Virus record (IMG/VR): IMGVR_UViG_3300025864_000022
Coordinates: 1-47,403 of that record
Strand: one strand, 5' to 3'
DNA: 47,403 nt
DNA from: a virus
The position numbers were made by a program, and so were the translations under genes. The notes beneath the pieces were generated by a model, which saw only the letters and a program-made list of their open reading frames with translations, ran no database searches and was not told the origin of the DNA. Positions 1 to 45,918 of the stretch are shown here, piece after piece (the stretch's first letter is position 1; every line of letters begins with the position of its first letter).

Positions 1-3000
1 CTTCATCCTCATATCCCTTGTATTTAGGATCAATTTGAGATTCCATTGCTCCCATTTCTAATCCATTTTGGTATTCTAAGAACTTATTAGGTAGTCCTAT
101 AGGATTTTCTATTAGATTGTATTCAACACCATATCCATCATCTAATAATTCAGCCTTTCCAATAGATTGATAATAGTATTCTACCCCATTCAATTTTTTC
201 ATGATTATAGGGAAATTAACTCCATCTCGAACCATTACTTGACTATTTCTAGAATTATCTGTTGGCACTTGAATTTGAATTACTTCATTCAATGCTTTAT
301 CTTCATCCATAAATACACTATCATCAACTTCATTCACTTCAGGAACAAACTTTCTCACATTTCTATGATTCACTAAGAATTGATTTATAAATCCTCTATA
401 AGCATCTTCTTTAGTAAACATTAGATTTAGTTTAATCAATGTCTTTCTATATCCTGGAATTGCTAATCTAACACTTACAGGAGCTAAATGGATAAAACTA
501 GTTGGACCAAATGCAAATCCATTTCTAAAGGAACTGTATGCAAATAAATCCATAGCTAATTTCTTAGCCTCATCTCCCATAGAAAGTAATGAATCCCAAT
601 CTCTTGTTATTGTATCTTTCTAATTAGGTGATATAGAACCCACATTGTTAAATACTATAATCTTTTGACCTTTTCCTTTATCATCAGTTATAACTGTTAA
701 ACCTTTTATTAAATCCAATTCACCGATTTCTTTGTTAGATTTTTTAATTCGCTCAAATTCATCAGGGAATTCATTTATGTAATGATTTCTTTTTGCTTGA
801 GCCTATAGAGGATCTTTTCCCCCAAAGAACTCTAATTCAGACATTATATACACACTTAAATCATTGTAAATCTGTTTAACCTGTTTAGAAGTAAGACTGC
901 CTTTTGAAAATTTAAATCGTTTGGTTAAATCTTTTATCTAATTGACTACATATTTATAGGATTCCTATGCATATGGATAATATTGACTTAAAAGTAATTC
1001 TGAAGTTTCCAATCCAAGAGTATAATTAGCTTGAACTAATGGAATAATACTACTGTTGATTGCACTTCTTAATTCTGAAATGTTTTCTCTTTTAGCCATT
1101 TTCTTATTTTTCAACAATCCAACCTTAATAAATTGTGCTCCAGTAAAAGGAAAATCTGCTTGTTCAGCTTCTTTCATTAAATCTTCTACATCATCTCTTT
1201 TTAAATTTGTATCTGCATCATGAGGTCCAGTAGAACCACCAGAGGTATCACCTCTCATAGCAGATACAATTCTAGCTAATAAATTACTCTATTTAAATGC
1301 GGGTTTAAACATATTTGTAATCTTCTGTTGGAATACAAAATACTCTTTTTTCTCTGCATCTGTTAACTCACTCATATTCTTTCCATATACAATTGCTCTA
1401 GCCATTTCATGTTGAGACAAATCTGAATTTTTGTAATCCTTTTCTGAATCTGTGTATTTAGTTGTGCCAAAGAATTCTTCTATTGTTTTCTTAACAATAT
1501 CATTTTTACTCGTCCCACTATCACTCCACAATTCATAATTCTCAGTCATCTAAATCACAATTGGCTATGATAAAAATAAACCCATTGTCCCATGTGTATG
1601 TCCTTGTCTAAGTAAAAAACATGCTAAATCTGCAGTAAAACTATTCAAATTCAAATCACTCAATACAGGGTCTTTTACAGCATCTACAGCAGCAGATACA
1701 GGTTCAGAAGTATTTCTACTAATGTATTGTTTATGAGCATTTAACATCTCATGCAAACTTGTATACTACTTACCCCCCAATTTAAATTCATACCCTTTTT
1801 TGATAGCTAAATTTGTATTCTATACAAGAGCATGATTAGCATTGTGATTAGCAAATATACCAATCAAAGCAGCAGCAGTGTGATTCTATTTATGAAAATA
1901 AGTCTAAGTTGAAGGACTAAGAGGATCTAATTGCTCCTTATATTCCTCAGCTAAATCACTTAATTGTTTTAGACCAAGACTATTCAAATATTTAGTTACA
2001 TCTGCTATTTTCTTTTTATCTTTTTCAATAAAAAATCCTTTTTCTATAGCAATTGCTTCAAATTCTCTAAACTTACTTAGTTTAAGTCCATTTAAAATAT
2101 TAACAACTCTAGCTGCTTTTTTCAATCCATCAAATCCGCCTGGGTTAATCATATTCTACACCGTATCTGGATTTGTCAAAATCCCCCACATGAGGTCAAT
2201 GATTTGATTGTTTCTGGCTTTTAAACTATTAATTAATGCTGGATTTTCTAAAGCGGCTTTTTTAAATTCTTCCCAAGATTGTAAACCCCTCTCTTCAGCA
2301 ATCTATTTTACATTATCCGCATTAATATCTTTTAACTCTGTGACATATTTTATATACGTAATATAATGATTTAATGTGGGTGTTTCTTCAAATTTAACTT
2401 TCTCAATTATTTCACCAAGAAAATATTTAGATTCACCATTTTCGTCTTTTAAATCTCTACTTTCTAACCAATTTTCAAATACTTTATATTCATTACTTTC
2501 TTTATCAAGTTTATCTGCGTTTTCCTTATAAGTTAAATTTTTAATAGTTTTAAACTATTCTCTATTTTCTTTAGGATCAACTCCCATTTTCTCCATGAGT
2601 TCTGTAACAAATTTATTTCTATCGTATCTTTTAGTAGTTGAGAATTCATGAAACATTGCATACAACTTGTCTGCATCAAAGTCAGTACCAGCAATTGTGG
2701 TGATTTCTTTTGGCAACATAATTGTTCCACCTGAAAAACTAGGTAAGAATCCTTTAATGTATATAGGAAACATTGAGTATTTATGTTCAGTTGGAATTCT
2801 ATAGCCAATCAGCTTCCTCAATTCTTCTGGTAATACCTTCAATGGATCACCATTTTTGTCCTTTAAATTCTTATGAACTGCATCCACATCTAATAAACCC
2901 GTTTTTGGATCCATCAATTCTTTGAAGTACTTAGAAGAGTACCAAGGCATATATGCTTCAATATATTCAATATACTTCTCACCTTTTGCATTAGTGCCCC

Positions 3001-6000
3001 ATTTGATATTTAAATCGTCATGAACCCCCCAAGAAGTCACCTATACAAGTGAACCACCTTTAGTCTATTGTTTAGTAACTTCATTCTTAATGATTGAATG
3101 ATTCATACTCTGTGTGCGATTGTCATGAACCTAATCACTCAATGGTAATACAGGGTATCCATCTTCAGCAATTTCAAGAGCTTTAGCCATTTCTGGGTTA
3201 TATCTCTTACTGCCATTAACCTCTTTCAGTAAAGTATTTAATACAGCAACTCTGTCTGAAAATCTATCACAAACTTTATAAAATGAATCTAATAAATTCT
3301 CAACATTTAAATCATTAAAGTGTTTAAGAATCTATTTATTATCATATACTTTTCCATTGACTATGTATTCTACACCTTCTTTTAAATCTCCTACAGCAAG
3401 TTTCTTAATCTAAGTACCAAACCCTTGATTCACATCCATGTAATGACTAGGCATAGGTTGTACAAGTGCATAATCTTCATAAGGTAGACTGTGTACTATC
3501 TGTGGATTATATCGTCCTACATTGGAGCTAATTGACTCCTATAGGTATCCTTTAATTGCTTCTTTAGTATCAAACTAATGCACATCTAATGCACCCTATC
3601 CACCTACTTTTACAGCAGTAGAGAACTACACTACATCTATTTGATTCTCTTCCATGAATTCCTCAATAGCACTCAACTAAGGAGACTTCTTCAATATATT
3701 AGAGAAGATTAATAGGAATTCTGCATTCTTATTTTGAATAGGTGTTCTAATCAATTGCTCCTATTTAATCCCACGAGCCTCATCTACAACCAATCCTTGA
3801 TTAGCTACTTGAGTATACATAAATGGTTTTTTGGGTTGCCAAATTACATTGAAATCTTCAACTTCAAATTTGACATCCTCACCTCTTTGCATTGCTTTTA
3901 ACTTGTTAAAAACTGGATCCATTGTTTTTGCATCCCATTGACCAGACATATCCATAATTGCTCTATAAGAGGATAAACTCCTATATGCTTGAGCATCAGT
4001 TACTTCTACTTGACCCTCACCCTTTTCGTTGGTGCTATACTTACTCAAAATATAATCTCTATCTTTTGCAGTCATTGTGCCTTTTTTGACAAATGCATCA
4101 AGGGCTTCTTTAATATCTCCTAGAGTATTTGAAACTGATTTAAAATCCTTTAGAAATATTGTATTCTCAACAGTTCTACCATGTTCTGACTAGGTATCTA
4201 ATCTCAATCCAGGAGTATGAATCTGTTTCATACGTTTCTATACCTCTCCTAGATCCTTGTAATAAGCTAAATCAGTAGTAGTGATTTGAAGCATTTGTGA
4301 CTAAGCAAATCGCTGATTCCAGAAGTAATTCCTCAATTCTGTTTCAGCTTTTTCTCTAGTGCTTAAATTCTATAGATGTTTTAATGTGTTGCCATCTTTA
4401 GTCTTTTCAAACAATCCAATCTTTTCATACTTCTTTTTCTCTGTTTCATATAGAGCATCTGTTTCCTATTTGATAATTTCCTTCAAAGTTGTTTTGAATT
4501 CTTCCATAGTCCCAGGCATATCCTCACCCATTAACTTCTCATCAAATAGTTTGATGTAATTGTTTAAGAATGGGAGGAATTGGAATTTTAATCCATTCTT
4601 TTCAAAATTATCTATAGGAGCAATCCATCCTTTAGCAATTTGATTCTATCTATTCCTAACTATCTTAATCCTATCATACTCCTACATAGCTACTTCATAG
4701 AATCCATCTAAAAGAGTATTTTCCCAATTAGCACTTGTCTAATCGGTGTATTTATGGAATTTCATAAATTCTGCAGAAGGGGCATCAGCTAAGATAAACA
4801 TTGGATACCAAGCTACCTTATTATATGTATCTGAGTAATACTCATTAATCATCATTAATGTATGATCTAATGGACTCAATTTAGAGTATTCCTTTTTATT
4901 GTAATTCAACACTACTTTGTGTCTAATTAATTCTCTCGATTTAGCATCTGTAGCCAAATCTCTAATCCATGAGTTTCTATATTGTCCACCAGACTAGAAC
5001 CAATTGTATTGACCATATTCCTTTTGGTAGAATGCCTACAATTCTTCATCTGTGTATTCAGTTCCCTTCAACTTATTCATTAAATCTAACATATAGGAAG
5101 GTGCTGTATAGGAGTAATAGCTTTTCTAATTCTCATACACAGAACTCTTCATCAGTTGTGTCATTGACCTTTTCAGAATTTCAGCAATCCCTTTATAGTC
5201 GTTTTCATATGCATTGATGAAGTCTAGGTGAGTTGCTTTATTGTCGCTTAATTTAGTAACAATTCGTACTAACTTGTCTAACATTTTTGGGAACATATGA
5301 CTCATTGGTACATTAGCTCCAGGAATAGTAGTCTGTTTAGGCAGATACTAAAGTGCTTCTAATAAAGCAGTTATGTTTGTATCAACTCCTATAGAGCCTA
5401 ATACGTCTTTAATTTTACCAATGTTGTCGTTTACATAAGCGGTAATTTCTTCAATGGATTTACCTCTAATGTCATCAACCATTCCCTCTATTTTGGGCTA
5501 GTCATCTGTTTTTTTCTATCCTACAAGAGTAAGTTTGACTATTGCAAGATTACCTCTATCAATATTCCCTGCTTCATCATATACAGAATTGAATGATAAA
5601 GCCGTTTTACTTTCCATAATAGCTCTCCATTCATCTAAAAAGTATCTAACCTCATCGGGTTTATTCAACTCTTTAGTCATATATGTATAAGATCCATCAG
5701 CCATTTTCTTGCGTATCTGTGTCCAATAAGACATAAATACTTTTCTAAAATCCTGATAGAACATGCTGTGTAATTTCTAATCCTTACTTACAGCATCGAC
5801 AATGCTATTAACCCAAGGTTTATTTACAGCCAATCTGCTAAGTATAGGTAGCATCTGATTTGATTTAGTCATTCCACTCAATTGTTCAATTAGAACTCCA
5901 TGAGCGACTTCACTATCCAAATAGATAGGCATATCTAAATCATCTAGTGATTCTTTTCCTCTAAAATCCAATTTAGGAATTTCCATTAGAATCTTCCTAG

Positions 6001-6904
6001 TCTATTGGCTAAGTGCTTGTGTAGGATTGATGTGCTTCTATTTAACCATCCATCCATCCTTGACCTATTCCTCTTCATTATCCTATACAACTCCTTCACT
6101 ATCCTATAGGAGTGATTCTGGTACATCTTCAGTTACATCTCCTTCATAGACAGCTACTTTACCATCCATGTATTTAACATCCACATCTTCATGGTCTGCT
6201 AAGAGTCGAGGGGTTTCTTTGATTAATAAGTCAAAGTTGTCTACAATCTTCTCAAATTCAGTTCGTTGATAGTCTGTGAATGTATCAGCATCTTTACTCC
6301 ATTCAGTTAAATCCTCTTTTACTAAATCGTATATACCTTTAACCCCAACTTCCATGATAATTTCTTGTCTGGTAGAATTGGGTCTAATGTCTTTTTGAAT
6401 GTCACTAACGTATCTACTGAATTCCCTAGCTACTAAATTAACTCGATTAACCCTCATTTCAGGTCTATAGAGTTTGTCTAGTGGATTTGAAATGGTAATT
6501 TCTTTTATGTTGAATATGTCTTTGGCGATTTGTTCAATCTATTTAGTCTCTGCTTCAGTTTCTTCTACAGGAATGAATTTAATATCTTCATTCTCATTAT
6601 TCACTACTGAATACATTCCAGAACCATTGCCTTCATAATTTTCAATGAATATATGAGTACCTGTTTTAATTCCTAAATCCTCAATTTCTAAAGCGGCTTC
6701 TTGTTCAGTTTTAAATTTAATCTATTCGTCTACATTAGCCATCCCTAAATAATCCTTGAATTCTTCTTCTACAGGAAAATGCTCCTCACTAAATAAATCC
6801 ATCTAAGTTCCTATTTTAGCAGCAGCTACAACAGGATTTAGTCCTGTTGCTTTTGCTAACTTCATCACATCTCCACTTTTGGAGTATAAACAATTTTTTG
6901 CCAT
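1..6904 (-). CDS. Giant virion RNA polymerase (crAss-type, two-barrel), 3' end beyond window
   Basis: At least 2,301 codons, open at the left edge, so the C-terminus is missing. The frame runs unbroken from the ATG at 6904 once TAG is read as Gln. Around residues 1385-1415 it has a segment like the RNAP beta-prime active site: an RIPTEHKYSM stretch (compare RQPSLH in cellular enzymes), then AGTDFDADKLY with the triad D1408, D1410 and D1412 (genomic about 2670-2683). This is the metal-binding DxDxD signature of double-psi beta-barrel polymerases; crAss-like phage phi14:2 gp66, a virion RNAP injected to transcribe early genes, has the equivalent DFDID. The first ~1,300 residues show no domain I recognise and may serve packaging or translocation. 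It is last in the virion operon, 9 bases after the 1,965-residue cargo gene. Function is strongly supported by the motif and position; the exact domain limits are not. Confidence 0.88.
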
Positions 6905-28835: not shown

Positions 28836-31201
28836 TCAAGCCTGCAATACAGCAGGAATCAAAGACATTGTTCGTGTCGGATCTAGTACGCAAAGACCCA
28901 ACGTAGCCATTCTGTGTATTACAGCAGAATCTTCATCAAAGGACATATAAGGATTACCCTTTTGACCAGTGAAAGGATTACGTAAACCCCATTGATATCC
29001 ACGATATTCAGTGTCACCTTTAATCTTACATTTGAAGATATTGGGTTGGTCCATTGTACCGATATACATGATATCATAACGATAGGACATAGCCACACCA
29101 CCAAGCGGATGCAAGATCTTATTACGAACTGGATCGTCATAGAAAGAGTCAACATCCAACTTAACACGAACTCCATTGGGAGCCTTATACTCAACGAACT
29201 GGAATCCAGCAGATAGAGCATTAGAGTGAAGTTTAGATTGAACTTTTTCAATAACACCAATAGAACTATTATCCAACATGAACTGAGTCCAACCAGAGAT
29301 AACATTCAATACAGCTTTGTGGAATGCAATAGCACCACGTTCACCAGTTTTAATTACAAAGTAACGATCACCAAAATCAAGTTTAGCAGCAGATAGTTCA
29401 TACAAAGCATCTTCCAGTAGTTTCAAACTAAAGGTGTTGTAATACATAGTATTAGCAACTTCCATTTGTTCAAACAAACCAGCCCCAGTCTTGATGACAT
29501 TACCTGACTTACCAAAGTTCATATATTCACCATTGGAATTTCTGTTAGAAGTACCAAAAGCAAGTACATTGTTTTTATATTCAGAGAACTATTGTTCTAC
29601 TTCCCAATCTACATTGTGCATCCACATCGTAGCAATATCCTTAGTCAAACCACCACTATCTGTGGGTTTTGTAATAGGAATACCTACTGCAAGTTTTTTG
29701 TTAAGCATGTTACCACCAACCTTGTGCTGAATACGAATCTGAGACCACTCATTACGCATAGAGACAGGAGAGGTAAACCTAACATCACCAACTTTTCTAG
29801 AGAATTCTTTTTCTACAGGAGCAAAGTCAATAGAGAAACGTTCACCCGAAAGCAATCGTTCTGCAGGACAACCTGTAGTGTTACCACCCATAAGTTCAAC
29901 CTTATAGACAGCGTTTGTACCTTCCATACGTGCATCACCAAGGATACGGAATGGATAGATCTGATTCAAGTGACCTACGATTACTTCACCATCGGCGAAC
30001 CAATCTTCTGGGAATACTAGATAGAACGGAGCAGTACCTACCCCTGAATTGCTAGAAGCTGATGTAACAACTACACCATTTTCATCTCGTGCTTCTACTA
30101 GAGGAATATTCCTACGAGAGGAACCAATTACATCCCAATAGTATTCACTATCATCCTCAAATTCCCTTGTAGGAAATTGATTCAGGAATGTATCCAGACT
30201 CTTACCTCTGTAATAAGCTAACAACTATACCATGAGGTTAGTTGCTTTTTGGGGAGCCAACTGAAAAATTGAACCTAAGTGATTGTCTTTAGTTAACATT
30301 TGTTATCGTAAAGGCTTTTTATCCTCTACTTCTTACAATTTATCATCTTGTAAGCTCAGCATATATCTTCACCCCAGTAGGGTGTCGTGCACTCGTGGAA
30401 GCTTATATTCTATTTGATGATATAAACATGATTTCCTAAAAGTAGAATAAGGCATATTAACTTGCTTTGCTGCAGATCTCATACTAAAGTTATTGTTAAA
30501 TAACTCTAGGATCTCAGACTTGCTAATCGTATTGTATTTACAATTAGTTAATCCCCTTTTTCTAATCTCGACTTTTTGATTAATTAACTCTGTATAGATT
30601 ATATATCTTGTGACTTTGAAATGTTCTCCCAATTTCTCAAGAGTCCAATTCTAATTCAAGTATAAATCCAATAGTAATTCTGTGTCGATGATTTGTCTTT
30701 TAAACCTTGGTGTGTTACCACCAATACTTACATTGTATCCTTTTGTCTTATCTGTTGAATCAAATAAGTCTATGTAATAGACTTCTCTTTCATCAATTTC
30801 TTCTAATAAACAATTCTCTAATAAATCCATGTAGAAGTTTTCCTTCCCATGTTTTTTCATTGCTCTGTTTATAAGTTGACTTCCATAATCACTGTGTCTC
30901 AAATGTTCTTTCCATCTGAGTTTCATGTCTACTTTTGTCTAACCCACATAAACTTTGCTGTTAGAATTGTTCCTGATAATGTAAATAAATCCTGTTTTCA
31001 TAAATAGTTTCATCTTCTATGCGTTACGGTGGCTACACTTATTAGGGTGTAGTTTACCTCGGTATTGCCCATTTGTAGAAGGGTTTCACCGATTTTGCGC
31101 GATGTTTACCTGCATGTTACCATGTAGGGAGGCTTAACGTAAGGTCAACCTTTCCAATGTTGGAATCCTACCATTTGGTATTTACCCAATTTACCTGCCA
31201 T
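28836..31201 (-). CDS. Major capsid protein (HK97-fold, crAss-like), 504 aa, split by a group I intron
   Basis: Exon 1 is 31148-31201 (18 codons, MAGKLGKYQMVGFQHWKG); exon 2 is 28836-30296 (486 codons plus stop), resuming LTKDNHLGSIFQLAPQKATN. Joined, they give a normal crAss-like capsid N-terminus and the expected length of about 500 residues. Exon 2 has TAG codons at 30225-30227 (in LMVQLLAYYRGK) and 29589-29591. It ends in TGA followed directly by TAA, then a strong terminator. It sits downstream of the scaffold gene, as usual. The intervening 851 bases contain stops in this frame and do not encode capsid sequence, so splicing is needed for a full-length product. Identity is supported by motifs and order; the exact splice bases are inferred from restoring the frame. 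Confidence 0.93.
30297..31147 (-). mobile_element. Group I self-splicing intron in the capsid gene
   Basis: 851 nt. The 5' exon ends in GGT (U before the splice site, as in group I introns) and the intron ends in G (30297), both diagnostic. A candidate P1 pairs the exon end AGGU with GCCU at 31130-31133. A core hairpin resembling P4-P5 is at 31060-31091 (CGGTGAAACCC with GGGCAATACCG on the minus strand), and near the 3' end is a GAAGATATA element typical of the P7/P3 region of group I introns. A homing endonuclease gene occupies most of the interior. Splicing here restores the capsid frame exactly. Subgroup not determined. Confidence 0.85.
30369..31013 (-). CDS. Intron-encoded GIY-YIG homing endonuclease, 214 aa
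   Basis: The N-terminal catalytic module shows the GIY-YIG pattern: GFIYIIRNN (residues 8-16) and KVYVGQT (20-26), followed by basic RWKEHLRH. The metal-binding Glu of the family is probably within the EIDEREVYYIDLF segment. The C-terminal half carries helix-turn-helix-like DNA-binding repeats (SKSEILELFNNNFSMRSAAK, then QVNMPYSTFRKS), as in intron-homing enzymes. Two TAG codons are read as Gln, one being the conserved Gln of the YxGQT motif (30939-30941) and one at 30651-30653. So the endonuclease is adapted to the phage code rather than newly arrived. An alternative start is the ATG at 31001. It should spread the intron into intronless capsid alleles. Confidence 0.87.
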
Positions 31202-31240: not shown

Positions 31241-32371
31241 TTACGCGTCAATATTCCATCCTTTTCCTATGAAGGATTCTGTATCTTCATCTACACCTGT
31301 AACAAATTTTAAATTACCATCAGCTCCTCTAGCAGTATTATTAAAGGTATTCTCAAGTTCTCTCAAACTTTTACCCACTTCCTTCTTTACTTTACCTTTT
31401 ACGAGAGCGTCTAGGTTCTTAAAACCATCTGTTAATGTGAAGATTAATCCCAGATTTTTAATGAATTCAGTTTTGTTTTCAGATTCATATTTCTACAAAG
31501 CTGTTACTAATTCACCATCTGAGTTTTTAAAGACAGGCTTGCTTATATTTTCATATATCTTTTGCCTAACTGTCTTATCAATCTGTAGTTCACCAAAGAA
31601 ATTCTTATCTTCTAAGATTGATTTCTTTAGATCCTCAGCTTGTTTTTTTCTTGTCTAAGTATTCTATTCTTCCTGTTGTTTGGCCTCATCAATAAGACTC
31701 TAATATTCAGTCTTAAAGTAGTCCTTGTTACTGCTCAGAGCCTCTTTAGCATCTTCAACATCACTTCCCGCATTCATGGATTTACTCACTTCACGAGTAG
31801 CTCTCTCTTTACTATACCCCCTGTTCAGGAAGTCCTAATAAATCAATTGCTTTCTTAATGTTTCCCCTACCTCTGACTCATCTGTAATTGCTGTTTCATT
31901 TATTGAATCCAAGTACTACAAAGTACCTTCATACTTTCTTACATCATCTTGTTCAATGTTAGCATTCAGTGCATCATCTATTCGTTTCTACCTCTCATCA
32001 AATTTACTTTGAATCTACTTCTCAGTAGCTTCTGCAAAATCCTCTGGGGTCTAAATCTTAGACAATGCTTCGTCATCAAGGTCAGGGAAGATACCTTCTT
32101 CTTTCAAGGCTTTGGCAATGGAAGAGTAGAAGTTTTTAGGAGAAGAACTTTTATCCTTGTCAGAATCAGTATCCCCCTTGTCCTCTTTATCTTCACCACC
32201 TACGCTCTCTGGTTTAGCGTCAAACAATTGTTCAACATCAACCTCAGTAGTTACTTCTTTTTCTTTTTCTTTACCCTCTTTGTCAGGTTGGGTATCCTCA
32301 ATTTCCTAATCCTGAAACAGATTTTCAATCTCGTCTGCTTCAAGAATGTTATTCAAATCCAGTTCTTCCAT
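31241..32371 (-). CDS. Capsid scaffolding protein, 376 aa
   Basis: Starts MEELDLNNILEADEIENLFQ behind AAAGGAGA, 6-13 bases upstream, and a clear promoter at 32402-32432. The first ~110 residues are extremely acidic (runs of Glu/Asp with Lys), the middle is a long helical and coiled-coil region (QRKQIDDALNANIEQDDV, then KEALSSNKDYFKTEYQSLID), and the end is more globular. Acidic-helical architecture directly upstream of the major capsid gene is the usual look and position of a phage scaffold. It ends in TAA 39 bases before the capsid ATG. It contains about nine TAG codons, so only overlapping plus-strand shadows appear under standard rules. Scaffold is inferred from position and composition. 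Confidence 0.78.
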
Positions 32372-32401
32372 TTTTTCTCCTTTAAATTTAAAACTTGAAA
32401 A

Positions 32402-32432
32402 CAAAGGTAAGTAAAAATCTAATCCTAAGCAA
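32402..32432 (-). promoter_or_regulatory. Bacteroidota-type promoter for scaffold-capsid genes
   Basis: Minus strand TTGC (32429-32432), 19 bases, then TACCTTTG (32402-32409), an exact match to the TAnnTTTG box. It lies 30 bases upstream of the scaffold start. Confidence 0.75.
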
Positions 32433-32476
32433 TACACTAAGGATTAAATTTATACTCATATAAATTTTTTATTTAT

Positions 32477-32914
32477 TTATACATTCAAATAAAAGGAATG
32501 ATTTCTATTTCCTTTCTTTTTTGATGCTAAATGTACCCATGTCACACCCGTCTTTGTATTCTTTTCAGCAATTAACTAATCAAATGAGATATGTAAGTCC
32601 TTTAGAGCCAATAGAATTAGATTAAAAGCTTCTTTAGTAGTCTTACCTCTAATTCCCACATCAATAGCTGTCCCAGATAAGTGTGCAGAATTAGAAACCC
32701 CTTTAACTGCTTTATTCAGTTTAGGACATCTGTACCAAGAGGTTATATCAAATGGAATTCCTATTCTAGTTCTAATTGGCTATAACACTGTATCTGCAAA
32801 CCAATCTGCATCTTTCTCAATTAGTTTAGGCATTGAATTATCAATCTTTAATTCTATTGCTTTACTAGATCTGGTTGCTTCTTCTATTGAAAAGTTTTCA
32901 CTTAAATGACTCAT
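32477..32914 (-). CDS. Endolysin, peptidase M15-type, 145 aa
   Basis: Contains the zinc peptidase M15 pattern: DITSWYRCPKLNKAVKGV, then SAHLSGTAIDVG with H78 and D85 as ligands, and TWVHLA with H128 as the third. These L,D- or D,D-peptidases cut peptidoglycan stem peptides; phage versions of about 145 residues act as endolysins and in Bacteroidota phages usually lack a signal peptide, as here. TAG codons occur after DTVL and at SFDQLIA. It is the last gene of a compact lysis cassette, two bases after the holin-like gene. Without the recoding no gene would be called at this locus. Confidence 0.88.
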
Positions 32915-32916
32915 AT

Positions 32917-33345
32917 TTATTTAAGTAAATGCATTATTAAAACTGTAGCTAATGCTCCAAGGGCTACAGAATATAAAGAAACTGTTACCCAAAAATTACC
33001 AACTTTGTTTTCTAAAGAGCGAATTCTTTTTTCTCTTGTAGTATATAAATCCATTTTCAAATCATCAAATTCCTTCTTATCGGCTTTGTCTTTTTCTAAA
33101 TCATCAATTCGTTTAGATGTACCACTTTTTAGTTCTTTGATATCTTCACTAAGTCGATCAATCTATGTACTCAATTTAATGAGTAAATCGTGGTCATCTG
33201 ACCCTTTTACACTAGTTACTTTTAAAGCTTCTGCAGCGGCATTAGCTATAACTGAAGCAGCCTTTGTAGCTGCATTACCTATTACGTCTAATGCTTTATC
33301 CTAAGCATCCTATAATTCTTTGTGAGCTTTCTCTGCTGCCGTCAT
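32917..33345 (-). CDS. XhlA-like holin-associated membrane protein, 142 aa
   Basis: N-terminal Ala/Lys-rich helix, a central coiled coil (STQIDRLSEDIKELKS, then RIDDLEKDKADKKEFDDLKM), and one C-terminal membrane segment (FWVTVSLYSVALGALATVLI) ending HLLK. A coiled coil followed by a single terminal transmembrane helix is the architecture of the XhlA family, which helps holins release endolysins. TAG codons at residues 12 and 15 and in STQID. Its position between a spanin-like gene and an M15 peptidase supports a lysis role. It could be the holin itself, since no other obvious holin lies in the cassette. Confidence 0.7.
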
Positions 33346-33388
33346 ATTGTCCTCATTTTTATAAGTGTTTTAAAATTATAAGATTAGT

Positions 33389-34069
33389 TTATTTGGTAAT
33401 TAATATGCCTAAAACTATTCCCGTACCCAATCCTATCCATCCTTTATTCTTATTGAACCAATTATTTTGTTTTGTTAATTGTTTCTTCAAATCATTGTTT
33501 AAATCTTCTCTAACTTTCAGTAAATCCACTTTACTTTTAATTGTCTAATCTTTTATAAGATTCTCTTTGTTACAAGAACCCCATCCTATACTATCTGCAG
33601 TAACTACTAAATCTAATTCATTAACTGCCTCTCCAAGGGCATAATTCTCATCTATAAGACCCTCTACCTAATTCTGATATGCATTAACTACTTCTATACA
33701 ACCTGCATCTAAGGAGTCTCCATATTGAGTCAAGAGATCTTTTACTTTTTTCTATAGACCCTAGTTCTATTTATTTAAACCATTCGCTTTAGATTCCCAC
33801 TAATCTGCTTTCTTTTTAGCTGCATCACTCTTAGCTTTTTCTATTTTCTAAATACTGTCCTATAAGATTATCAACTATTTATTATTTGCGTCTGTAATAG
33901 AATCCCTTAACGTTTGTGTAGCATTCTATAATTCTGTCTAAAAGAGTAATTTCTAAGTCTATTTATAATTTGCATTACTACAGGTAAATGTGATGAATAT
34001 TAATAAACCACATAAACCTATACTAACCCATTTCCAATATTTTTTTATGAAATCGAGTATTTTTTTCAT
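33389..34069 (-). CDS. Spanin-like membrane-anchored coiled-coil protein, 226 aa
   Basis: An N-terminal membrane helix (residues about 14-29, WVSIGLCGLLIFITFT) is followed by a long Gln/Lys-rich coiled coil and a C-terminal hydrophobic segment (GWIGLGTGIVLGILITK). The cassette position and shape suggest an inner-membrane spanin or holin accessory. CSN follows the first helix, so a lipoprotein is not excluded, though the lipobox is imperfect. By my reading 13 of its 18 Gln codons are TAG, one of the highest densities in the window. Read with the standard code it breaks into fragments of at most a few dozen codons. Ends in TAA. Confidence 0.68.
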
Positions 34070-34283: not shown

Positions 34284-36479
34284 TCAACTCATCTTATACG
34301 CTGAAAAAAGGCTTTTATTATCAAATATATATTTTACCAATGATTTAAACACAACATTCGCCAATGCCAAATACCCGATTGTTCCAAAATGTGTATTATC
34401 GCCGGGCAAATCGGGGTGGTAGTCCGCATTTGTCAAAACATCAATATCGTTTTCCGTAAAATTGACAACAGGAATACCATATTTTGCCCCAATTTTGTAA
34501 ACAACATCCCATGTTCCCGTTCCGCTTGTACTCCCTGGTATTCTTGAGAGGAGCATTATTTTCAAATTGGCATTTTGCGCCAACATTGCTTCAATAATCT
34601 TACAATAGGTACCCGTATTCGTGTCAGCGTAAGTATTATAATCTCCAGAAACCGTATCAGCCACAATAGTATCTGTTAGTCCTTCGTTTTCTCCCAAATG
34701 AATAACCGCAACATCGTAGTCTGCATAATCATAAAGTGCAAACTTATTTAAATACCACGTTTTAGGCGTGTACCCCCCAACTCCTGAATTTTCAACCGTC
34801 CACCCTGTCAGTTTCGCTAAATAATGAGGGTATGATTGATTTGGGAACGTTACATGATCACGTACACCGGCCGTGATACTATCGCCAATACAGATAGCCG
34901 TATCAAAAATGGCTTTACAATATTCAGATACTAAAAATTTAGTCTTATTGGCATCCTCTATAGTTTCAGAAAGAATATCATAATCATAATTGGCAATGAC
35001 CACTAATTTTGCACCCGTCAATACTGACCCCCGTAAATAAACTGCGCTCGTAGGTCTTGTGAGCGTAGCATTTGCCGCACCCGCTTCGTACATTGTCGGC
35101 AATGTATTATAATATTTATCGTAAAAACATAAATATGTATTATCATTCGGTGAGTGCCCGCTAACCGTTATGTTTGCTTGCCCCTTTATATTGATATATC
35201 CAGTTAAATCATACCCAGCATTAGAAGTCTCTACTCCATTGGTATATAAAAACCAACCGGATGTATATCCAACGTTCGCCGCTAAATCAGCATTTTTAAA
35301 TTGATATGTATTATCTGCTAATTTTGTAAAATTGTCCGATAAAGTTTTTTGGCTTGCGGGTTCTTGTATCGATGTTCCAAGCGTTAATAACGGGCTTTGT
35401 TTAAAGCAATTATTACCAATAATTAAGTCCGGTTCTGTCGCATTTAAATTGAATGCTGTATTTAAGGGTAAATCATCAAAATCTATTTGAGCGATCATAC
35501 GTTTTACGCCTACCGTCGCATCCCAAATAAATGCAACCCCATCAACAATACCCAATGAAGCCTTTGTTTTAGACCCCGTATCGAAAACGTCAGACCAAGA
35601 TCCTCCCGAAAAAGCCGAAATAATTATGCGATAATAATGATCAACGGAATAATCAATAAATAACAATTTAATCTTATGTGGTAGCGAAGAATCAAATCCG
35701 ATAAGATTTAATTGTTTAAATGCCTTATAGTACTCCCTTCTACGTATTATACCATCTGGCCCCAATGAGTCCAATGTGCTTAAATCGCTATTATATCTTG
35801 CGAAACATGGGTATTGGGTATCCCACATAACATTCACCGCATTTCCACACGGTACATTCACTAAACTTGTAGTAACCGTTTGCTCAACCCCCAAAGCCGT
35901 CTGATAATCACCCCCAGCCTCAAAAGCTGCACCACTGAAATAATTCCACTTGCCATCATCAATAGTGACGTAAGTATAAGCATGGTCGGGGTCTGCCGTG
36001 TTTAAAGCCGCTAAATCCGCATAGACGCCTTTCGGCCCACCTGAAACAATCGCTGCGGCTGCATCCCTATAAAGCAATGTTTGGGCTTCTGCGTCTTCGG
36101 TAATGCCTTGGGCTGTTTCGGATGCGGTCTGTGCGGTCTGTGCTAAAATACGGTCAGCACTTGCTTCTCCTGCTTTAGTTGTTGCAATCCCCGCTTGTGT
36201 AGTTGCGGTCTATGCATTTATACCTGAATTCGTTTCATGTGTTCCTGCACTTAAATCGTGGTTATGTGCATTATTTTCGCTCTATAATGCGTCATCTTTA
36301 GCAGTATTCATTTCCACTAAAATATCATTAATTTCTCTTTCTGTGAGAGCTACTTTTTCCCAACCAGTATCTCCAAAAGCCCACAATGTATTTTCAATAG
36401 GCCCTTCTTTTAACCACATCACATTAATGTTATCAGGAGGATAACTAGATTTTACAATTTTTTCAATTATTGTTCCCAT
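34284..36479 (-). CDS. Tail fibre with SGNH/GDSL hydrolase domain, 731 aa
   Basis: N-terminal ~65 residues (YPPDNINVMWLKEGPIENTL, then WAFGDTGWEKVALTEREIND) form a virion-attachment region, followed by an Ala/Thr/Gln coiled coil (QTAQTASETAQGITEDAEAQ), a repeat-type unit with VYADLAALN and YTYVTIDDGKWNYF, and a beta region. The C-terminal ~210 residues are an SGNH hydrolase: GDSITAG (catalytic Ser about 534), NSGVGG (564-569), LGENEG (595-600) and DNTHFG (His about 697). Such domains deacetylate or de-esterify surface polysaccharides. TAG codons occur only at 36282-36284 and 36210-36212; the remaining ~640 codons have none, and are clearly less AT-rich. It ends in TGA. The start overlaps the portal end by 17 bases. 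Fibre identity is inference; hydrolase is well supported. Confidence 0.85.
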
Positions 36480-41860: not shown

Positions 41861-42292
41861 TTAAATAATAATACTCTTTTTAGGTGGGAGAATTACCTTT
41901 TGAACCACGGGTTCTGGATCGGCAACCTCTTCAAAATCTTCCACAATGAACTCCACATCTCGATCCTGTAAAAGAAGATATTGAATATCATTCATTGTAA
42001 CCACATCAAAATTATAACTAGTTGTCACATTGTCTCCTAACACACCATCTTGTAGAGAGCCTTCCTTGTGTTTCTTTACTGCGAATCGGGTAGGATTAAT
42101 ACATACCAAATCATCTACTTTAATCTCTCGTACAGCACCACCAATAGCAATTACTTTTTGATATTCTTTTAGTCCTGTCTTTGTTTTTGTGGGATCTATA
42201 ATTCCACCAGTTGTATATCTATCGGCCTCATACTTTTCCATCGATGTTATCAACGCTGTAAACATGGGCCTGATTTTCTTTATCTTTAGCAT
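41861..42292 (-). CDS. GroES-like (Cpn10-fold) protein, 143 aa
   Basis: The segment RPMFTALITSMEKYEADRYT, TGGIIDPTKTKTG, YQKVIAIGGAVREIKVDDLV, then CIN parallels the co-chaperonin layout: PL-DRVLV, a mobile loop ending in SGIILP, GEVVAVGPG, and VKVGDRV. The acidic/Pro C-terminal extension (VADPEPVVQKVILPPKK) is extra. Phage co-chaperonins help fold capsid proteins with host GroEL. It sits just before the packaging and structural genes, consistent with that. No TAG codons. The start at 42292 overlaps the previous gene by 65 bases; an ATG at 42265 just before FTALITS is an alternative start still within the overlap. Confidence 0.62.
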   Translation of the reverse strand: MLKIKKIRPMFTALITSMEKYEADRYTTGGIIDPTKTKTGLKEYQKVIAIGGAVREIKVDDLVCINPTRFAVKKHKEGSLQDGVLGDNVTTSYNFDVVTMNDIQYLLLQDRDVEFIVEDFEEVADPEPVVQKVILPPKKSIII

Positions 42293-42551
42293 TCTTTAAT
42301 TCAATTAATTTTTTGTTTCTCTCCTTTATTCTAGTCATTCCTTCATAGGTACAATTTAAATTGCCCAAAGATGGTAAATTAAAATTGGTTCTTAACTTAG
42401 AAAACTCTTCTTCAGTTAAATCTTCTTTTAATGGTAAAGTTTTAATAGTCTCTTTTATAAACTACCAATAAGACACATATGCCTTACTTACTTCATCTAT
42501 TGGGATATTTAATTCTTTTGAAATCTAATCAAACACAAATGAGTATTTCAT
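42228..42551 (-). CDS. Hypothetical protein, 107 aa
   Basis: Starts MKYSFVFDQISKELNIPIDE with TAG codons at residues 9 and 30; this is the first TAG-containing gene met when reading in the direction of transcription. Its ATGA start overlaps the previous stop. It is helical and Lys/Glu rich (EDLTEEEFSKLRTNF, then GMTRIKERNKKLIELKNAKD) and ends in TGA inside the GroES-like gene in another frame. An N-terminal helix followed by NIPIDEVSKAYVSYW suggests a small DNA- or protein-binding domain, but I do not recognise the family. Gene reality rests on the intact frame, the tight overlap and plausible composition. Confidence 0.6.
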
Positions 42552-43213: not shown

Positions 43214-43399
43214 TTATTTTTTATTTAAAAATTTTGTACCATATTTTTGTTCATACATGTTTTCCCATGTAATAAAATCTACTGTTACTGTATCTGTGTT
43301 ACCACAATCATCACAGTAATCTGATTCATCAATAATTCTTATAGCTAGAGATAAACAATTCTTACAGTAGGTTACTGGTTCATTGTTGTAGTCCGACAT
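43214..43399 (-). CDS. Small zinc-ribbon protein, 61 aa
   Basis: Two CxxC knuckles, YCKNC (C12, C15) and YCDDCG (C29, C32), make a compact zinc ribbon, followed by an aromatic-rich tail with TWENMYEQKYG. No TAG codon. The start lies inside the end of the preceding gene (20-base overlap). Zinc ribbons of this size usually bind nucleic acid or act as adaptors. Confidence 0.66.
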   Translation of the reverse strand: MSDYNNEPVTYCKNCLSLAIRIIDESDYCDDCGNTDTVTVDFITWENMYEQKYGTKFLNKK

Positions 43400-43676
43400 T
43401 CTCTAGATGCTCTAGATACCTTCCATATATTTGTTTCTTTAATTCGTTAGTTACTCTGCTATGTATTCCTGTTCTCTTACTAGTATTTCCTCTATTGTTA
43501 AAAGGTTTATCTGGAGCAATCATTCCTATATTAGTCACATGCCCTCTCTTGATAGCTCTATTGACTGATTTGAACTTACTTATTGCTTCAAATGTTTTAA
43601 GTCCTCTAGTATCATTTAAATACTTCTCAAACTCTTCTTGAGTCATTGGCTCTCTTTCAATTACTTCTTCTTCCAT
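43380..43676 (-). CDS. Hypothetical basic protein, 98 aa
   Basis: Starts MEEEVIEREPMTQEEFEKYL: an acidic head followed by a basic middle (KFKSVNRAIKRGHVTNIGM, then NRGNTSKRTGIHSRVTNELK). The switch from acidic to basic halves is consistent with RNA or DNA contact. The start overlaps the upstream stop as TAATG, and its TGA lies inside the next gene. No TAG codon. Family not recognised. Confidence 0.6.
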   Translation of the reverse strand: MEEEVIEREPMTQEEFEKYLNDTRGLKTFEAISKFKSVNRAIKRGHVTNIGMIAPDKPFNNRGNTSKRTGIHSRVTNELKKQIYGRYLEHLENVGLQQ

Positions 43677-45589: not shown

Positions 45590-45735
45590 CTGACTCCTCC
45601 GACTTTAGCTTTGAGGATATATACATGCGCTCAACACCATGTATAGCTAACTAGGGTCCTATCTAGAATGGCCTAGTGCACTCAACTGCGTTTGCTAGCG
45701 TTGACTCTAGTAGAGGCTGTGTTGGTACTATAAGA
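45590..45735 (-). other. Unassigned, hairpin-rich noncoding stretch between tRNA-Thr and the structured RNA
   Basis: No protein frame of useful length. It contains inverted repeats such as ATACATG/CATGTAT (about 45623-45654, 10-base loop) and TCCTC/GAGGA just before the tRNA, and several CTAG tetramers. Probably a transcribed spacer or RNA of unknown function. Confidence 0.4.
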
Positions 45736-45826
45736 TGAGGGGACTACGGAAGCACTTCTGCTCCCTAGCAAGTTTTATTATTTAATGTGGAGTTCCTCAT
45801 ACTCCATTACAGTTGTTGTCCCCTCA
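45736..45826 (-). ncRNA. Candidate structured RNA, three-way junction
   Basis: About 91 nt closed by an 8-bp stem, GAGGGGAC (45818-45825) with GTCCCCTC (45737-45744). Inside are two hairpins: GGAGT/ACTCC with a seven-base loop (45789-45805), and GGGAGCA/TGCTTCC with a four-base loop (45748-45765). It sits 19 bases after the suppressor tRNA, and is not a canonical tRNA because there is no D-arm or TTC T-loop. It may be a degenerate tRNA, a tRNA-like element or a new small RNA. Confidence 0.5.
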
Positions 45827-45844
45827 AAGATCTTTTAATTTAAT

Positions 45845-45918
45845 TGGTTGTCCCACCAAGATTCGGACTCAGACTAAAAAGGTTAGAGCTTCTTGTGCTA
45901 CCATTACACCATAGGACA
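45845..45918 (-). tRNA. Suppressor tRNA-Gln (CUA), reads UAG
   Basis: A 74-nt cloverleaf: acceptor TGTCCTA with TGGGACA, D-arm GTGT AATGGTA GCAC, anticodon arm AGAAG CTCTAAC CTTTT with anticodon CTA at 45884-45886, T-arm CTGAG TCCGAAT CTTGG, and an encoded ACCA end. The U1-A72 pair, G2-C71, U35 and the TGTAATGGTAGCAC D-region are features of glutamine tRNAs. It explains why TAG is sense in this phage. Unusual: the T-loop begins TCC instead of TTC. Confidence 0.95.

Follow-up and report, generated by a model that had tools for sequence, protein, structure and literature searches.

Late-gene TAG recoding has been described for crAss-like phages (Yutin 2021, PMC7886860), and mass spectrometry has revealed that other crAss-like phages decode TAG as Gln (Peters 2022, PMC9523058). 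In the account that a review (PMC10136315) gives of Borges 2022, recoded stops are enriched in the lysozyme/amidase and spanin/holin genes of crAss-like phages, and recoding is proposed to act against premature lysis. The idea of recoding as lysis control is already published. What is added here is that the excess can be traced to the spanin, not the holin, and that the TAG codons of the spanin are unusually retained. Why phages use a code foreign to their host is an open question, with lysis timing as the leading proposal.

Two Steigviridae, crAss001 (NC_049977) and cr128_1, carry a lysis module in a position equivalent to that of the one analyzed here. In crAss001, gp27-gp30 lie between structural/fibre genes and gp31/capsid and encode a membrane lysis protein, a holin-like protein and a peptidoglycan-cleaving enzyme. 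The stretch of DNA under study (47,403 nt, referred to as the window) has the same three kinds of product, with portal/fibre genes on one side and capsid genes on the other, and is syntenic with crAss001 gp27-gp32. A PHROG search assigns its major capsid, portal, terminase and tail proteins to crAss PHROGs. There are, however, differences. crAss001 uses the standard code, without TAG in any gene compared. The enzyme is a DUF5675 protein in crAss001 (L,D-carboxypeptidase-like) and cr128_1 but an M15 peptidase in the window, and the membrane proteins of the two modules, in crAss001 and in the window, have no detectable homology. With respect to recoded crAss-like phages, the window is the same in kind (recoding confined to late genes, a suppressor tRNA(CUA), TAG read as Gln, many recoded stops in the lysis genes).

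Two independent close relatives were available, c25575 (3300025575_000001) and c1869 (3300001869_000005). A third contig, c2068 (IMGVR_UViG_3300002068_000002), is almost identical to the window and contributes no independence. The main features are listed in Table 1. A GIY-YIG homing endonuclease gene separates the gp31-like gene from that of the capsid protein; no reciprocal best match to it was found in c25575 or c1869. Minus-strand matches to a Bacteroidetes-type promoter upstream of the cassette were not above chance, and no terminator-like site was found near it. Positions 1-6904 of the window were considered as a non-coding gap, but an ORF there runs off the contig end.

Table 1. Positions of the features of the window (strand in brackets)
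Feature	Position	Size	Assignment and basis	TAG codons
Window (IMGVR_UViG_3300025864_000022)	1-47,403		crAss-like phage fragment; gut-type	
Major capsid protein	28836-30299 (-)		contrast gene in which TAG is avoided	2 of 17 Gln
GIY-YIG homing endonuclease	30369-31013 (-)			2
Gene downstream of cassette	31241-32437 (-)	~376 aa	crAss001 gp31 slot before capsid gene	10 of 21 Gln
M15_3 metallopeptidase endolysin	32477-32914 (-)	145 aa	PF08291, PHROG 894	both Gln (codons 45, 113)
Putative holin	32917-33345 (-)	142 aa	position and topology	3 of 3 Gln (codons 12, 15, 61)
Spanin-like protein	33389-34069 (-)	226 aa	PHROG 312	13 of 18 Gln (earliest: codon 37)
Gene upstream of cassette	34284-36479 (-)	731 aa	C-terminal GDSL/SGNH lipase domain, fibre-like	2 of 19 Gln
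Leader gene	42228-42551 (-)			near called start
Leader gene	43214-43426 (-)			near called start
Non-coding stretch	45590-45844 (-)	255 nt	between tRNA-Sup(CUA) and tRNA-Thr	
Amber suppressor tRNA, anticodon CUA	45845-45918 (-)		Bacteroides tRNA-Gln body; ARAGORN call is Pyl	

Products of the lysis module

Under code 15, three adjacent minus-strand ORFs, each ending in TAA, occupy exactly positions 32477-34069. They are transcribed in the order spanin-like protein, putative holin, endolysin. The preliminary description had reported these three genes, and its coordinates and TAG counts are exact. Under table 11, only fragments of 44, 47 and 46 aa are found on this strand, and the longest ORFs on the opposite (plus) strand have 132 and 85 aa. 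It was correctly stated that standard-code calling misses the genes on their strand, as no intact cassette gene can be called; with its minimum ORF length set low, a gene caller could still output the fragments of at most 47 aa. The designation as a complete lysis cassette holds for the presence of three products in lysis positions, but "complete" is generous, with the holin assigned by position and topology only.

The spanin-like protein matches PHROG 312 ("Rz-like spanin") with a modest score (E 6e-6, residues 5-119). It has an N-terminal TM, a long middle region predicted to be helical, and a hydrophobic C-terminus. The membrane segment and the predicted periplasmic helix are as in Rz-type i-spanins, but a separate Rz1-like gene was not found: none of the code-15 ORFs of at least 40 aa around 33389-34069, nested or adjacent, encodes such a partner with a lipobox. 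Cys30, which follows the first TM and is conserved in three relatives, and the C-terminus, which is also conserved, recall u-spanins; the lipobox, however, is not canonical (TFT-C, LVT-C, TLM-C), and the C-terminal segment is moderately hydrophobic, its hydropathy being under the TM threshold used. In this layout, the protein is reminiscent of a unimolecular spanin that lacks a canonical lipobox. A search of viral and genome collections returned no spanin relatives beyond the contigs already known. The spanin-like label is upheld, as is the count of TAG at 13 of 18 Gln positions (the others being 4 CAA and 1 CAG).

The 142-aa protein is a putative holin by its position and its single, C-terminal TM (residues 120-138). 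Its middle part appears coiled-coil-like from the sequence, so that the layout of XhlA (coiled coil plus single C-terminal TM) is present. "XhlA-like" is nevertheless the weakest label of the preliminary description: the XhlA profile is not among the Pfam hits at E ≤ 1, and a PHROG holin match has an E of 0.0012 and spans 23 residues. In relatives, an extra small membrane protein is encoded just upstream of the spanin (L099, 7138-7470 (-), two TM and 2 TAG; L090, 2943-3398 (-), three TM and no TAG). It is possible that these are the true holins and are missing from the window. The holin slot of the relatives holds differing proteins of like topology, and the lysis module is therefore a mosaic.

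The endolysin assignment is supported by its domain: PF08291 (Peptidase_M15_3) matches with an E of 2.5e-10 and 40.9 bits, against a gathering threshold of 23.2, and PHROG 894 ("endolysin") with an E of 1e-29. The M15 label is retained, with peptidoglycan cleavage as the predicted activity. As in other Peptidase_M15_3 phage endolysins, the domain match is full; the compared standard-code relatives have no internal stop, whereas both Gln codons are TAG in the window. H78, D85 and H128, which we take to be the M15 zinc ligands (His/Asp/His), are invariant in 82 relatives. W126 is another invariant residue. No solved structure matching the endolysin by sequence was found. AlphaFold models of the spanin and the endolysin are of low confidence (mean pLDDT 42 and 54, respectively) and add nothing.

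Decoding of TAG and the recoded late arm

That TAG is read as Gln in this phage is supported by sequence comparisons. Among 46 standard-code relatives, Gln is the leading residue at the TAG columns, with a share of 37%, compared to 41% at the CAA and 42% at the CAG columns. Codon TAG-113 of the endolysin aligns to Gln in 82 of 82 M15 relatives; many of these were retrieved with a pattern that includes the FDQLI motif. Gln is also present at this position in L042, L183 and L184, for which that pattern was not used. The suppressor tRNA is identical to Bacteroides tRNA-Gln(UUG) in its first 26 nt and shares most of the T arm. A GenBank "tRNA-Gln" hit in cr53_1 is itself a CUA tRNA and was left out as proof. 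We infer that the host charges the tRNA(CUA) with Gln.

The frames past TAG in the cassette are under purifying selection (dN/dS 0.08-0.20; past the first TAG, 0.17-0.20 for the spanin and 0.08 for the endolysin). Together with the invariant Gln at TAG-113 and the tRNA-Gln body of the tRNA(CUA), this supports the full-length reading. The catalytic residues and the holin TM fall after the first TAG of their genes, and the three products in lysis positions would lose essential parts if translation ended there, a conclusion that is supported.

The non-coding stretch next to the suppressor tRNA has a column identity of 84% across three phages and an RNA fold z of -2.6, with compensatory changes at 9 of 48 predicted pairs in the three sequences. 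It is found only in this clade and has no Rfam match at the gathering threshold. It may be a new structured RNA.

Recoding extends over the complete late arm. Every late gene of the window has TAG, the earliest being at codon 9 in the terminase, 11 in the portal and 25 in the capsid gene (12, 19 and 2 in-frame TAGs, respectively). The suppressor would thus gate virion and lysis genes alike, and dependence on it characterizes the late arm in its entirety. This bears on the earlier statement that lysis proteins depend strongly on the suppressor tRNA: the dependence itself is borne out (TAG read as Gln, presence of the tRNA, truncation at the first TAG), but it is not specific to lysis. The full genomes of c25575 and c1869 have hardly any TAG in their plus-strand arm, while the minus-strand arm is recoded end to end except for the leader, a block of small, nearly TAG-free minus-strand genes that contains the suppressor tRNA. 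The suppressor tRNA of the window, too, is located in a leader with nearly TAG-free genes. Two leader genes (Table 1) have TAG near their called starts, in relatives too. They may start downstream of these TAGs or they may be recoded, and because of them the leader may not be entirely standard-code.

TAG density in the lysis genes and its interpretation

We consider it very probable that the three genes form the lysis module of a crAss-like phage that uses the TAG=Gln code throughout its late arm, with the code switch gating structural and lysis genes together. The leader would be expressed first, under the host code. The tRNA-Gln(CUA), charged with Gln by the host, would build up, and the late genes, including those for lysis, would then be made full-length. 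Any extra delay specific to lysis would come mainly from the TAG-dense spanin.

Whether the TAGs of the lysis genes have a function of their own is a separate question, and the odds seem about even that they have none. TAG would largely have replaced CAG throughout the arm and been removed only from the genes most in need of fast or accurate decoding (capsid, fibres), and the TAG-rich look of the lysis genes would reflect their weak expression and tolerance. TAG/(TAG+CAG) is ~0.84 in nearly every late-arm context (window, L090-L094, L095-L099), much higher than the proportion of Lys and Glu codons that end in G. For this ratio, the difference between the cassette and the remaining late genes is not significant (p=0.32). 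TAG has largely replaced CAG in the late arm. The capsid genes of the three recoded genomes have TAG at 2/17, 2/20 and 3/21 Gln codons, where context would predict 6-7, and keep CAA/CAG at 14 of 17 shared Gln sites, while neighboring genes are TAG-rich. Other genes equal the spanin, such as TerL of c25575 (17/26) and a large late gene of c1869 (47/71). On the other hand, the TAG fraction is not correlated with protein conservation (Spearman -0.16, p=0.54), and a general bias to G-ending codons as the cause of the spanin TAGs was rejected on codon use. Moreover, the spanin TAGs are retained rather than drifting. Of the Gln codons shared by the three close genomes, 8 are all-TAG, 3 all-CAA/CAG and 1 mixed in the spanin, but 68, 118 and 139, respectively, in other late genes (all-TAG vs mixed p=0.001, a post hoc test on 12 sites). 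Other synonymous sites of the spanin evolve at an ordinary rate. This hints at selection on the spanin TAGs. Context-dependent suppression was also considered, and rejected, as an explanation of where TAG is placed. TAG occurs more often when the next base is A or G, but a comparable trend is seen for AAG and GAG, and TAG/(TAG+CAG) hardly varies, so that the effect is generic.

Somewhat less probable, in our view, is that selection keeps the TAGs in lysis genes as a translational brake which delays lysis, beyond the general recoding of late genes; a role of this sort was suggested in the preliminary description and is the hypothesis already published. In the window, TAG accounts for 18 of 23 Gln codons in the cassette vs 179 of 470 in other late genes (OR 5.9, p about 2.5e-4 to 3e-4), and a permutation test for the best run of three genes gives p=0.001 for the cassette (p=0.007 when genes are ranked). 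Over all 11 recoded contigs, the OR for lysis genes is 2.0 (p=2e-5), and over the eight more distant ones 1.7 (p=0.02); all these tests treat codons as independent, which makes the p-values optimistic. Resolved by role, which in the distant contigs was assigned from position, topology and family and thus in part by judgement, the 11 contigs have TAG at 51/77 Gln codons of spanins (OR 3.3, p=6e-7), 18/39 of endolysins (OR 2.2, p=0.046) and 15/51 of holins (OR 0.8, not enriched). In the distant contigs, PHROG confirmed the amidase, but neither the holins nor the short lipoprotein-like spanins gave a lysis-family hit. The retention of the spanin TAGs also fits a brake, although that test was picked after the data had been seen. 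The holin is the usual timer of lysis, and it is precisely the holins that lack enrichment, with the c25575 candidate having no TAG at all. Further arguments against a brake are that the cassettes of c25575 (13/25, p=0.31) and c1869 (14/24, p=0.09) are not significantly enriched and that the remaining late genes are gated as well. The enrichment in lysis genes that Borges 2022 would predict is thus seen in the window and in spanins overall, but not in holins and not significantly in the other two cassettes.

A narrower proposal, that the spanin TAGs are positively maintained and that outer-membrane disruption, the last lysis step, is held back by the suppressor tRNA instead of the holin, is unlikely. 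If it were true, release would be timed at the spanin via the tRNA supply.

That the TAGs are real stops, the frames being decayed or coding for short functional peptides and the plus-strand ORFs being the genes, can practically be dismissed. In its favor are the two standard-code ORFs of 132 and 85 aa; against it are dN/dS values far under 1 downstream of the first TAG, Gln at TAG positions, a suppressor tRNA, and catalytic residues and a holin TM beyond the first TAG.

For the recoded crAss-like phages, this case supports the genetics of the code switch, namely the source of the tRNA, the identity of the inserted amino acid as Gln and the restriction to the late arm. It also counsels caution, as recoding across the late arm should not be taken for lysis control. 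If recoding does time lysis, sensitivity would be expected of the TAG-dense spanin and endolysin and not of the holin.
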